Shown in pieces: positions 27,437-30,830 of a stretch of DNA of 64,000 nucleotides. Numbering within the stretch: the first letter of the stretch is position 1; the number at the start of each line of letters is the position of its first letter. The notes beneath the pieces are model-generated. The model was not told the DNA's origin and did not search any database. It saw only the letters and a list, made by a program, of their open reading frames with translations. The DNA comes from Pedobacter sp. JY14-1 (lineage in GTDB: Bacteria; Bacteroidota; Bacteroidia; Sphingobacteriales; Sphingobacteriaceae). The stretch spans positions 124,601-188,600 of the forward strand of contig NZ_JARJHU010000009.1 of assembly GCF_029269825.1 (NCBI RefSeq), read 5' to 3'. Made by a program: the position numbers and the translations under genes.

Positions 27437-28420
27437 TTATATCCATTCATTTTCGCGGTACCAGCGGATCGTCTCCGCGATACCCTTTTCCAGGTCAAAT
27501 GCAGGATGGTAAGCCAGATCGCGTTCCGCTGCCCGAATACTGCATGCCCAGTTCACCGCAGTCAGCTCAGCCATCTTTTCCCGGTTAAGGGCAGGGGTGG
27601 CTTTCCGGTGCGCATAGAGTTTATCCATCAGCCCGGCAATCATGCTAACCAATCCCACCGGCAGATGGAACTTAAGCGTCCGTTTCTTCAGCGCCTTTCT
27701 GGCCAAAGCCCCGAGTGCATAGCGGTCATATGCCTTTCCGTCGGAGATATTATAGGCACGTCCAGGAACCCCCTTAAACAGCGCCCTGATGATGGTCCCC
27801 GCCAGGTCAGTTACATAAACGAAGCTCAGCTGCTGCCGGAAATTACCAATATAAGGTTCCACGCCCCGGCTTATGCTCTTAAATAAAATGAAGATATCTT
27901 TTTCCCTGGGGCCATAAACAGCAGTCGGGCGGATAATGACCAGTGGCAAACCCCTGATCCCGCTCAGGTACCGCTCCGCAAGCAGTTTGCTGGCTCCGTA
28001 AGCCGTCACAGGTTTTGCCATACTCACTTCGGTAAGTTCACCCTCAAGCCCATCCAGGGGACCAAGCGCCGCAAGACTGCTCACAAATACGAATTTTTTT
28101 AAATTAACCCTGAGCGCGGCTTCACCCAGGTTACGACTGAAATCTGCATTAACGAGGTTATATTCTGCGGGTGTCTTCGCTTTGGTAATTCCGGCGGCAT
28201 GCACCACATAATCAATACGGTGTTCTTCCAGAAGCAGCTGTAAGGATGCTGCCGAAGTATAATCCGCGTAAACGTACCGGATGTCAAATTGCTGCAAATG
28301 CGTTCTGTCCGTATGTTCGCGCACAGCAGCGAAGACCTCGAGCCCGGCAGCCAAAGCCTCAGCAACCAGGTGATACCCCACGAAGCCTGTAGCCCCCGTG
28401 ATCAGTACCCGCTCACTCAT
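27437..28420 (-). CDS. NAD-dependent epimerase/dehydratase family protein; ceramide reductase (CerR) candidate
   Basis: 327 residues of the extended short-chain dehydrogenase family. The dinucleotide loop GATGFVG is at residues 9-15 and the catalytic pair YxxxK is Y141 and K145 (YGASK). Cytoplasmic, perhaps membrane-associated. It is the last gene of an operon with serine palmitoyltransferase and a GNAT protein, overlapping the GNAT gene by 4 bases (ATGA). In Caulobacter an epimerase-like protein, CerR, reduces the 3-keto group after N-acylation; the same role is inferred here from context and family. A 3-ketosphinganine reductase acting before acylation is the alternative. Confidence 0.82.
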   Translation of the reverse strand: MSERVLITGATGFVGYHLVAEALAAGLEVFAAVREHTDRTHLQQFDIRYVYADYTSAASLQLLLEEHRIDYVVHAAGITKAKTPAEYNLVNADFSRNLGEAALRVNLKKFVFVSSLAALGPLDGLEGELTEVSMAKPVTAYGASKLLAERYLSGIRGLPLVIIRPTAVYGPREKDIFILFKSISRGVEPYIGNFRQQLSFVYVTDLAGTIIRALFKGVPGRAYNISDGKAYDRYALGALARKALKKRTLKFHLPVGLVSMIAGLMDKLYAHRKATPALNREKMAELTAVNWACSIRAAERDLAYHPAFDLEKGIAETIRWYRENEWI

Positions 28421-29535
28421 ATCTGCTTCTCGTAAATGCGATATCGTTTGTAAACTTCCCCGTTAATGGCCTTAATCGCATTGTTCACCATATCGTTGTG
28501 CTCCAGCGTCCAGCTGGCCTCCGCATAAGTCATTCCTTTTTGCTGATAAGCCTTGATAATTCGCGCATAGATACAAGCTTCAATACCCATCTTACGGTAA
28601 CCGTCAATTACCCCAAGCAGCAATATCCTGATGCCCTTAATCTTGCTCTTGCCAAACAACAGCTTAAAGATACCGGTAGGCAGCAAACGTCCCTTTTTAA
28701 TCGTCTTCTGGATCTGGTTCATATCCGGGATCGCCGCACCGAAACCAACCAGTTTACCGTCCTGCTCGGCGACCAGGCAGAAATCCGGGTCCAGGACCAG
28801 CTTCAGGTCTTTAGCCTGATAATCAAACTCTTCATCGTTCAGTGGTACAAAGCCCATGTTCTTGTCCCAGGCTTTATTATACACTTCACGAAGCTTATCG
28901 GCTTCTTCCTTAAAACGTTTCATATTGATCTTTCGGATCACGATATCCGATCGCTTCAGCCTTTCTTCCAGACGGTCCATCAACCTTACCGAACGGTCGT
29001 CGTAATTCTTTCCGGTAAATCTCCAGGCCAGCAGGTCTACCTTCTTGGCCAGGCCGGTACCTTCCAGCAGGGCAGGGTAGTAAGCGGCATTATAAGGCAT
29101 CATTACCACCGGTGGCATATCAAAACCTTCTACGAGCAATCCGCAGCTCTCATTGGTCGAAAAATTCACCGGGCCCATGAGCTTGTCCTTCACACCACGT
29201 TCCTTCAGCCAGTTCACCGCAATCCCGATAAGGAGATCCGCAGCATTCTGGTCGTTGATGCAGTCAAAAAAACCGAAAAAACCATCGCTTGCCAGGTTCA
29301 CCCGGTTGTGCGTGTTGTTCAGTATCGCCGCAATACGTCCGATGATCCTGCCTTCGTCATACAACAGGAAGCATTGAAGAGAAGAATGTTTATGGAAAGG
29401 GTGGGTGGTCAGCAAGTCCCGCTGAGCGATAAACAACTCGGGAACATAATTCAGATCGTCTTTATAAAGTTCGTGCGGAAAATCAATAAAATCGGCCAGC
29501 TGTTTCTTGGTGCTTACGGCAACGATGTTTCTCAT
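28417..29535 (-). CDS. GNAT-fold acyltransferase-like protein; bacterial ceramide synthase (CerS) candidate
   Basis: 372 residues with a divergent N-acyltransferase fold. Recognisable are [17 protein letters not shown] at the N-terminus, a [21 protein letters not shown] stretch (about residues 138-160), and a C-terminal GNAT-like core ([52 protein letters not shown]). It overlaps serine palmitoyltransferase by 4 bases upstream and the epimerase by 4 bases downstream, so the three are translated together. The Caulobacter ceramide synthase is also a GNAT-related protein, so N-acylation of 3-ketosphinganine is the likely job. This is inference from family and operon. Confidence 0.8.
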
Positions 29536-30737
29536 ATAGCTATCGGAAAGGTTTTAACCTGTATCACCTTAGCCGCTGCCGCTATTTTTTCCACTGCTTC
29601 CTCGATCTGCGCAAAGGTATGCGTCGCCATCAGCGAAAACCGGATCAGTGAAGCGTCGGAAGGTACTGCCGGGGAAACTACCGGGTTCACAAAAATACCG
29701 TTGTTGCTCAACTCATTAGTGATCAGGAAAGTCTTATCGTTGTCACGGATGTAAATCGGGATGATCGGGCTGTCGGTATGGCCTATATCAAAACCTGCGT
29801 CCAGCAATAATTTCTTTGCATAATTGGTATTTGCCCAGAGCTGATCAATACGCTCCGGTTCAGATTCAATGATATCCAGTGCGGCGATCACACTGGCCAC
29901 CGCTGCCGGGGGCATGCTTGCGCTGAACATCAGCGATCTTGCCCTGTGTTTGATAAACTCGATCGTTTCCTCGTTTGCGGCAATGAATCCCCCTAGTGAG
30001 GCCAGCGATTTACTGAAGGTACCCATGATCAGGTCTACCTTGTCGGTCAGGCCAAAGTGAGAAGCCGTTCCGGAACCGCGCTCACCGATTACACCAAGGC
30101 TGTGCGCGTCGTCCATCATAATGTTCGCCCCGAATTCATCAGCGATCTTTACGATCTCCGGCAAATTTACCAGGTCACCCTCCATACTGAATATTCCGTC
30201 GGCGACGATCAGTTTACCGGCATCCTCAGGCAGCCTGCTGATTTTCTTACGCAGGTCTTCCATATCATTATGCGCATATTTGATACTTCTCGAAAACGAA
30301 AGCCTGCTGCCATCAATGATCGAAGCATGGTCATACTCATCCAGGATCAGGTAATCATTCCTGTCGAGCAGACAGGAGATCACGCCAAGGTTTACCTGGA
30401 ACCCCGTACTGAACAACACCGTCGCTTCTTTGCCCACATAATCCGCAAGTCTCCGTTCCGCCTCAATGTGAATATCCAGTGTACCATTCAGAAACCTTGA
30501 ACCTGCACAGCCAGTGCCGTATTTTTCTATTGCAGCCTTAGCAGCTTCTTTAATTTTAGGGTGGTTGGTAAGGCCAAGATAGGAGTTCGAACCAAACATC
30601 AGCACCCGCTTCCCGTTAATCATCACTTCTGTGTCCTGGCCCGATTCGATCGCCCGGAAATAAGGATAAATCCCTTTTTCCTTGATCGCATTAGCATCCT
30701 GAAAGGCTGCTATTCTATCCTGTAATTTTTTGCGCAT
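29532..30737 (-). CDS. spt: Serine palmitoyltransferase
   Basis: 401 residues. This PLP enzyme condenses L-serine with a long-chain acyl-CoA to 3-ketosphinganine, the first step of sphingolipid synthesis. The sequence is very close to the characterised Sphingobacterium enzyme across its length. Motifs: [39 protein letters not shown] with H137 stacking on [16 protein letters not shown], and the Schiff-base lysine K243 in [12 protein letters not shown]. It is a cytoplasmic dimer in relatives. It heads an operon with a GNAT protein and an epimerase, with 4-base overlaps. A full consensus promoter lies 64-93 bases upstream. Confidence 0.95.
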
Positions 30738-30800
30738 TCTAGTATGTAAGTATTTAGATGATTTTAAAAATCAACATTTATGCCAATAAATAAAACTTTC

Positions 30801-30830
30801 CAAATCTAGTATCCTCACCACACAAAACAA
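30801..30830 (-). promoter_or_regulatory. Consensus Bacteroidota promoter for the spt operon
   Basis: On the minus strand TTG (30828-30830), a 19-base spacer, and TAGATTTG (30801-30808) match the Bacteroidota pattern TTG-N19-TAnnTTTG at every defined position. It implies a 5' leader of roughly 55-60 bases before spt. Confidence 0.7.

Follow-up and report, generated by a model that had tools for sequence, protein, structure and literature searches.

Organization of the locus

We analysed a 64,000-nucleotide stretch of the 4.08 Mb genome of Pedobacter sp. JY14-1 (contig NZ_JARJHU010000009.1, G000:C9:124601-188600), hereafter the window, in which positions are counted from the first letter. Its minus strand carries, from 30737 to 27437, three consecutive genes that very probably constitute a dihydroceramide synthesis operon, spt-cerS-cerR. 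Ceramide is a lipid best known from human cells. The first gene, spt (29532..30737), encodes a predicted serine palmitoyltransferase (Spt) of 401 aa. The second (28417..29535) encodes a tandem-GNAT protein of 372 aa, proposed to be the N-acyltransferase CerS, and the third (27437..28420) an extended short-chain dehydrogenase/reductase (SDR) of the epimerase type, 327 aa long and proposed to be the reductase CerR. The four bases ATGA are shared by spt and cerS at 29532..29535 and by cerS and cerR at 28417..28420. Both overlaps were read from the junction letters, which confirmed the three-gene arrangement with 4-base overlaps reported in the first-pass annotation of this DNA. The genes had also been described there as physically fused into one translation unit; this wording is too strong, as each junction holds only a stop-start overlap.

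Enzyme families of the three proteins

The first-gene protein exceeded the cut-off of NF047600, the model for CFB-type serine palmitoyltransferase (743.4 bits vs. 640, residues 1–394), and its best solved relatives were 8guh and 3a2b (phmmer E ~1e-181). K243 is presumably the lysine that binds pyridoxal phosphate (PLP). Ala273 stands 30 residues after it, and Ala occupied this position in 126 of the 127 aligned rows at least 55% identical to the window Spt (some genes enter twice, from two loci), the remaining row having a gap. In this register Ala273 falls on Lys281 of the sulfonolipid enzyme SulA, a close Spt paralogue with the same fold, which differs from Spt by that lysine, located 30 residues after its PLP Lys251 (PMC9304779). 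These features suggest serine palmitoyltransferase activity for the first gene product.

The GNAT protein gave a weak Pfam match to Acetyltransf_1 (29.9 bits). In the comparisons with known systems, Caulobacter CC_1154 and CC_1164 were represented by their Sphingomonas, Roseomonas, and E. coli counterparts. The GNAT protein was 37% identical to E. coli YghO over its full length (residues 1–372, E 8e-77) and 31% identical, also at full length, to a Sphingomonas N-acetyltransferase (E 9e-56), whose gene is surrounded by those for an NAD(P)H-binding protein, an acyl carrier protein (ACP), an oxoamine synthase, and lptF/lptG. CC_1154 corresponds to E. coli yghO, of the family named aca, and is required for dihydroceramide (PMC9386255). 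The AlphaFold model (pLDDT 91) was a tandem GNAT with the best VIA match to 7q3a (Z 23.5 over 301 residues); N-myristoyltransferases, which also move long acyl chains, matched it at Z 15.4–15.8. The modelled fold would permit long-chain acyl transfer and does not by itself prove the substrate. Judged by these alignments, the GNAT protein is a full-length member of the CerS/YghO family. Placement of this protein in an unrelated family had been named as an outcome that would refute the first-pass annotation; an unrelated GNAT is ruled out by the YghO and Sphingomonas homology together with the tandem-GNAT fold. Among plasmid records, tblastn with the GNAT protein matched 45, of which 43 had at least 80% query coverage. 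A second CerS-family GNAT, assigned to a group designated B, is encoded elsewhere in the same genome (G000:C1:714057-715136, locus L088) and is about 30–31% identical to the operon GNAT. At another locus, L249, a group B-related gene adjoins an epimerase-like gene.

The third protein matched Pfam Epimerase with 133.5 bits, and its AlphaFold model (pLDDT 95) had the extended SDR fold. The motifs GxxGxxG (G9, G12, G15) and YxxxK (Y141, K145) were invariant in 26 aligned rows. The protein was 30% identical (E 1e-35) to the epimerase of the E. coli spt-yghO cluster (L266), taken by its cluster position as the counterpart of ECD_02852, which in the published ceramide gene scheme equals epi and CC_1164 (PMC9386255). 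Identity was 33% (E 2e-48) to a Rubrobacter oxidoreductase encoded beside a synthase-GNAT pair and 29% (E 1e-31) to the Sphingomonas protein; the Roseomonas protein guessed to be the reductase did not match the window SDR. A PDB search with the SDR profile gave no match at E ≤ 1e-20. This homology relates the SDR to the epimerase/CerR found in the E. coli cluster. Caulobacter CerR is described as periplasmic, and no predicted transmembrane region is reported for the Caulobacter proteins (PMC11087976). The first 60 residues of the window SDR had no clear hydrophobic segment or signal peptide (maximum 19-residue Kyte-Doolittle mean 1.38), the same maximum ranging from 0.72 to 1.92 in 90 homologues; the sequence neither supports nor excludes a periplasmic location.

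Co-occurrence of the three genes

The distribution of the genes was examined among 41 relatives, namely the window's own genome, 24 genomes of the genus, and 16 of the class. Spt over the cut-off was found in 19 of them, and the operon-type GNAT (E < 1e-130) occurred in exactly those 19. Of the Spt-bearing genomes, 18 had the SDR (E ≤ 1e-30), which was absent from all 22 genomes without Spt. Fisher tests over the 41 genomes gave 4e-12 for Spt/GNAT and 9e-11 for Spt/SDR, both uncorrected for kinship.

At the level of the phylum, the GNAT profile matched 151 of 198 genomes at E ≤ 1e-60, and Spt over the cut-off was present in six. A synthase at E ≤ 1e-150 was found in 25 of the 198, in 19 of these under the Spt cut-off. 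It adjoined a GNAT gene in 17 of the 19 genomes; one more, G109, had the GNAT gene beside another synthase. Synthase-GNAT pairs are therefore widespread, and the GNAT family as a whole is not tied to strict Spt. In all 12 such synthases inspected, from pairs found in many Bacteroidota without strict Spt, the Spt-type Ala was present.

These pairs bear on a different assignment of the locus, a sulfonolipid operon of the capnine/sulfobacin type, in which the first gene would encode a cysteate acyltransferase (SulA/CFAT), with the GNAT as the corresponding N-acyltransferase. The chemistry of sulfonolipid synthesis, with SulA/CFAT and a later N-acyltransferase, is parallel and its condensing enzyme related, SulA being so close to Spt in sequence and fold (PMC9304779), and family GNAT genes also adjoin the under-cut-off synthases; however, the window Spt passes the NF047600 cut-off and has Ala where SulA has its discriminating lysine, a residue also replaced by Ala in the lower synthases inspected next to GNATs, and the inositol lipid genes found downstream in kin (see below) fit ceramide. 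On the cut-off and the Ala we rejected the sulfonolipid operon, which we regard as very improbable.

Conservation of gene order

The three genes were contiguous, in the order Spt-GNAT-SDR, in 13 of the 19 Spt-bearing relatives; eight of these, the window included, had both overlaps of exactly 4 bases. Five relatives (G006, G013, G019, G023, and G024) showed a split state with Spt and SDR genes as neighbours and a full GNAT gene 57–93 kb from Spt. The remaining relative, G018, had Spt and GNAT on separate contigs and gave no SDR match.

For named loci, the best 80 of 391 relatives by GNAT similarity were used; these were from Pedobacter, Mucilaginibacter, and a few metagenome-assembled genomes titled Bacteroidetes, and the nearest were Pedobacter species. 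The contiguous order was seen in 53 of the 80, once with a short Spt. The others were Spt-GNAT without SDR (14 loci), GNAT-SDR on short contigs (3), and GNAT alone (10, among them L132, a short contig with a partial Spt). When the locus with the short Spt is set aside, 52 contiguous loci remain; among them, the 4-base overlap was present at the GNAT/SDR junction in 49, at the Spt/GNAT junction in 18, and at both in 17. In a phylum sample of 395 genomes, Spt over the cut-off occurred in 18: nine had the contiguous order (families f1, f18, and f25), four (G253, G300, G402, and G418) had Spt-GNAT without a neighbouring SDR, and five (f55 and f56) had the genes apart, some on different contigs of draft genomes.

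The first-pass annotation had described a shared operon of the three genes as unusual. This holds for Caulobacter and for the Bacteroidaceae genomes examined, but not here, as the counts for the nearest named loci make plain. In a 2024 paper, bacterial cerS is said to lie always outside the spt/cerR operon, which is tied there to a possible salvage pathway (PMC11324152). In the window, the GNAT gene overlaps both spt and cerR, and this is a failure of that generalisation, not of CerS membership; if the GNAT is CerS, the rule of an always separate cerS fails both here and in kin. Other work describes the three genes as often clustered but, in the Bacteroidota of an earlier study that it cites, not close together (PMC11334938); this holds for the Bacteroidaceae genomes that we examined and fails for the kin of the window. 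No publication on this operon was found in a search of titles and abstract openings, with subscription papers outside its scope. The probable ceramide operon is well conserved, and its chemistry is ordinary. As an arrangement, it is new relative to the accessible literature.

Promoter match and probable shared transcription

A pattern search found TTG-N19-TAGATTTG, a consensus which we take to be a Bacteroidota-type promoter, at 30801..30830 on the minus strand, with the TTG starting at 30830 and the second element at 30808-30801. This predicted promoter stands upstream of the first ATG, as the first-pass annotation had it, in the gap between spt and a divergent gene at 31172. The pattern by itself is not rare. 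With the 19-base spacer it occurred twice on both strands of the window vs. 0.85 expected from first-order Markov resampling; with spacers of 17–23 bases it occurred four times vs. 5.7 expected by the same procedure. Removal of identical or short sequences left 97 distinct upstream regions. The motif was present with identical spacing in all 14 regions whose Spt was at least 89% identical; among the remaining 83, two matched with other spacings and 81 did not match, and the motif was absent from the Mucilaginibacter upstream regions examined. The match is credible because of its position between spt and the gene at 31172 and the spacing kept in the 14 nearest regions. In 15 aligned regions, which were chosen by the motif and in which it is hence invariant by construction, the spacer was 90% conserved, the 40 bases upstream 86%, and the 40 bases downstream of the motif 69%.

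One might suppose that the three genes are mere neighbours without shared transcription and that the promoter match arose by chance. The number of patterns expected by chance, their absence from the Mucilaginibacter regions examined, and the little contrast between spacer and upstream bases in motif-picked regions would suit this explanation, which nevertheless appears scarcely credible given the common strand, the 4-base overlaps, and an order kept across several families; the motif, moreover, recurs in the 14 upstream regions selected for high Spt identity, and conservation is lower in the bases downstream of it. In our view, all three genes are probably transcribed from a single promoter ahead of spt. 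Their translation is probably coupled through the two ATGA overlaps, and the three enzymes would then be kept at a fixed ratio.

Proposed pathway

In the proposed dihydroceramide pathway, Spt would form 3-ketosphinganine from serine, the tandem-GNAT protein would N-acylate the long-chain base, and the extended SDR would use NAD(P)H to reduce the 3-keto group, with dihydroceramide as the product. Assignment of the locus to the three enzyme classes, as made in the first-pass annotation, stands, and the joint role claimed there is probable in view of the Spt cut-off, the kinship of GNAT and SDR, and the co-occurrence in 41 genomes. The first-pass annotation had also spoken of a 3-keto route, in which acylation precedes reduction. 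Neither gene order nor sequence can reveal whether N-acylation or reduction comes first, a question on which the literature is divided (PMC11087976, PMC11324152, PMC9278070).

Several points weigh against this assignment. The activities proposed for the three proteins rest on sequence and models. PDB sequence searches with the GNAT protein gave no relative at E ≤ 1, and those with its profile none better than E 0.29. In the GNAT tree, the rhodobacterial CerS grouped with the clade of the window-type operon (clade A) rather than with group B, with a support of 90/81, under the starred level. The group B paralogue occurs in many genomes of the class, with or without Spt. The GNAT family is far wider than strict Spt, and many of its members may serve other oxoamine synthases or substrates. 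The co-occurrence test ignores phylogeny, and the conservation contrast at the promoter match is weak in rows picked by the motif. Finally, the SDR was missing at E ≤ 1e-25 from G018, G253, and G402 and weakly matched in G300 and G418 (1e-26 and 1e-27), and all five have Spt and GNAT.

The last point suggests a variant in which Spt and GNAT make ceramide, the SDR acts elsewhere, and reduction of the keto group falls to a 3-ketosphinganine reductase encoded away from the operon, such as BT_0972 of B. thetaiotaomicron. The 19 relatives and the 18 genomes from the phylum sample, with the window's own genome entered only once, give 36 that bear Spt. Five of these, G018 and four of genus g19, had no strong SDR match, and another reductase is expected there. 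The reduction step can be filled otherwise, possibly by an enzyme like BT_0972, which is active in vitro and whose gene lies away from spt (PMC9278070). A role of the window SDR elsewhere would also agree with its top NCBIfam match, a sugar epimerase model at 114.9 bits, far under the cut-off of 367.65. However, among relatives the SDR was confined to Spt-bearing genomes and missed in only one of them, it is still beside spt in the five genomes with a moved GNAT gene, and the homologous epimerase of the E. coli cluster has a Caulobacter counterpart needed for dihydroceramide (PMC11324152). We consider the variant unlikely and retain the SDR as the candidate reductase of the operon.

Displaced cerS and two GNAT lineages

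In the five split genomes (loci L073, L078, L082, L084, and L085), the gap between spt and cerR was found to hold a decayed cerS remnant. In G024 this is a 140-codon in-frame open reading frame (ORF) with the GNAT N-terminus kept and ATGA overlaps on both sides. The remnants of G006, G013, and G019 are in-frame ORFs of 47, 54, and 54 codons, respectively, with an ATGA overlap with the cerR start; they end in an EKAI/EKTI tail like that of the intact protein, and the N-terminus is recognisable in G006 and faint in G013 and G019. The G023 remnant stops short of cerR. Retention of the ATGA overlap in four of the five remnants suggests, short of proof, that coupling to cerR is selected, since the split genomes are related and may have lost the gene only recently. 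On one side, the displaced cerS copies of G018 and G024 have a recognisable neighbour in common (the N-terminus of a 495–509-codon ORF); the opposite side is taken up by ORFs of about 790 codons. This shared neighbourhood fits a single move.

The GNAT tree contained three clades: A, A2, and B. Clade A2 comprises the GNAT proteins of Bacteroidaceae and f56 as well as those encoded in the G073 and G422 operons. In the first tree, with labels preset by score, B-labelled L028, L096, and L038 fell with A2, and A2-labelled L251 fell with B; in the second, L251 was relabelled B, and the other three were left out. A label for GNAT genes adjoining a synthase (AOSadj) was loose, with a synthase within 1.5 kb in 12 of 25 such loci, and did not form a clean clade (support 72/37 in the first tree, four changes in the second). 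The Spt proteins of A and A2 carriers formed one clade (100/99), as did their SDR proteins (95/95); these two trees gave long-branch warnings for the Rubrobacter, Aureispira, and proteobacterial rows. Bacteroidaceae fell inside both clades, in the case of Spt with support under the starred level. One Spt/SDR lineage is therefore paired with two deep GNAT lineages. Within family f18, the middle slot of the operon is occupied by an A-type GNAT in G130 and G292 and by an A2-type in G073 and G422. The simplest reading of these trees is GNAT replacement between A and A2, in either direction.

Downstream inositol head-group genes

A ceramide and inositol-head-group supercluster was observed in named loci. 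A homologue of myo-inositol-1-phosphate synthase starts at most 500 nt downstream in 54 of the 80 best named loci (e.g., L121, L142, and L169); the one homologue scanned matched PF07994 at 342 bits. In a looser count, which includes genes cut by contig ends, it was present in 39 of 56 loci with Spt-GNAT-SDR, all 15 with Spt-GNAT, and none of the 9 with GNAT alone. Further downstream lie a PgpA gene in L120 and a CDP-alcohol phosphatidyltransferase gene in L142. Such genes are parts of the inositol lipid cluster of B. thetaiotaomicron (PMC9246714). A PF07994 search of the window's own genome gave no match, and one of the controls, Bacteroides ihuae, matched; hence this species probably uses a head group other than inositol.

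A wider scheme can be offered tentatively, as possible rather than probable. In Sphingobacteriaceae-type bacteria, the whole ceramide backbone pathway would be one fixed-ratio transcript, often joined by inositol head-group genes; cerS would have moved out inside Pedobacter, leaving a scar of 47–140 codons that now serves as a translational coupler. If the dihydroceramide operon is what it appears to be, the presence of operon and split states in one genus makes the salvage explanation for a separate cerS testable. The compact operon in Pedobacter and Mucilaginibacter, together with the species whose cerS left it, would form a natural experiment against the stated rule. The three genes would also provide a cassette for reconstituting bacterial ceramide synthesis in E. 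coli K-12. They would make it possible to ask how far the CerS:Spt ratio is important and would be a clean genetic background for the question of N-acylation-first vs. reduction-first.

Comparison with known systems

The genes of Caulobacter and Rhodobacteria (aasR, cerR, acpR, and spt, with cerS CC_1154 apart) belong to the same three enzyme families as those of the window. The rhodobacterial counterparts are 29–37% identical to the window GNAT and 29–30% to the window SDR. Caulobacter cerS belongs to another operon (PMC11324152), whereas in the window it lies between spt and cerR. Caulobacter Spt prefers a special acyl-AcpR (PMC9386255); the window operon contains no acpR or aasR gene, the remainder of the genome not having been searched for them.

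In Bacteroidaceae, where CerS is BF9343_4218 and CerR BF9343_4240 (names as in PMC10865984), Spt and SDR share the clades of the window proteins, but the GNAT belongs to the deep separate clade A2, which presumably corresponds to BF9343_4218. The genes are apart in four f55 genomes and one f56 genome; f55 was taken as Bacteroidaceae on the 80–81% identity of the G277 GNAT to those of Bacteroides finegoldii and Phocaeicola massiliensis.

The E. coli spt-yghO cluster encodes the YghO (37%) and epimerase (30%) homologues described above. In L266, yghO is on the opposite strand from the epimerase, ACP, and spt genes, whereas all three genes of the window are on the same strand. The E. coli stretch of spt, acp, epimerase, AMP ligase, and yghO was at least 80% covered in 4022 of 5426 complete E. 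coli genomes, and some of the listed records have an IS1-type transposase inside it.

Plasmid 1 of Rubrobacter radiotolerans (L265), from another phylum, Actinomycetota, carries genes for an oxoamine synthase, a GNAT, and an NAD(P) oxidoreductase in the same order as in the window. The first two genes overlap by 8 bases, and the proteins are 45, 36, and 33% identical, respectively, to those of the window. This three-gene set stands beside type I-D CRISPR genes.

Flanking features

A terminator-like hairpin of 13 pairs was found at 30936-30965 on the minus strand, upstream of the spt promoter match; the scan returned two such sites vs. a mean of 5.0 in shuffled sequences, i.e., fewer than by chance. 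Between cerR and the next same-strand ORF, the scan found no terminator-like site; therefore, read-through into that ORF is possible. It encodes a DUF6807 protein (26284-27375, minus strand) and lies about 60 nt or more 3' of cerR; a DUF6807 ORF is equally near cerR in L079/L101 and L130 and 1–5 kb farther in other kin. The divergent ORF on the other side (31172-31861, plus strand) belongs to the YhhN family, and its ceramidase match was weak (E 0.17, under the cut-off). In 11 Pedobacter loci, of which two or more represent one and the same stretch, a YhhN homologue was located no farther than about 6 kb from spt.

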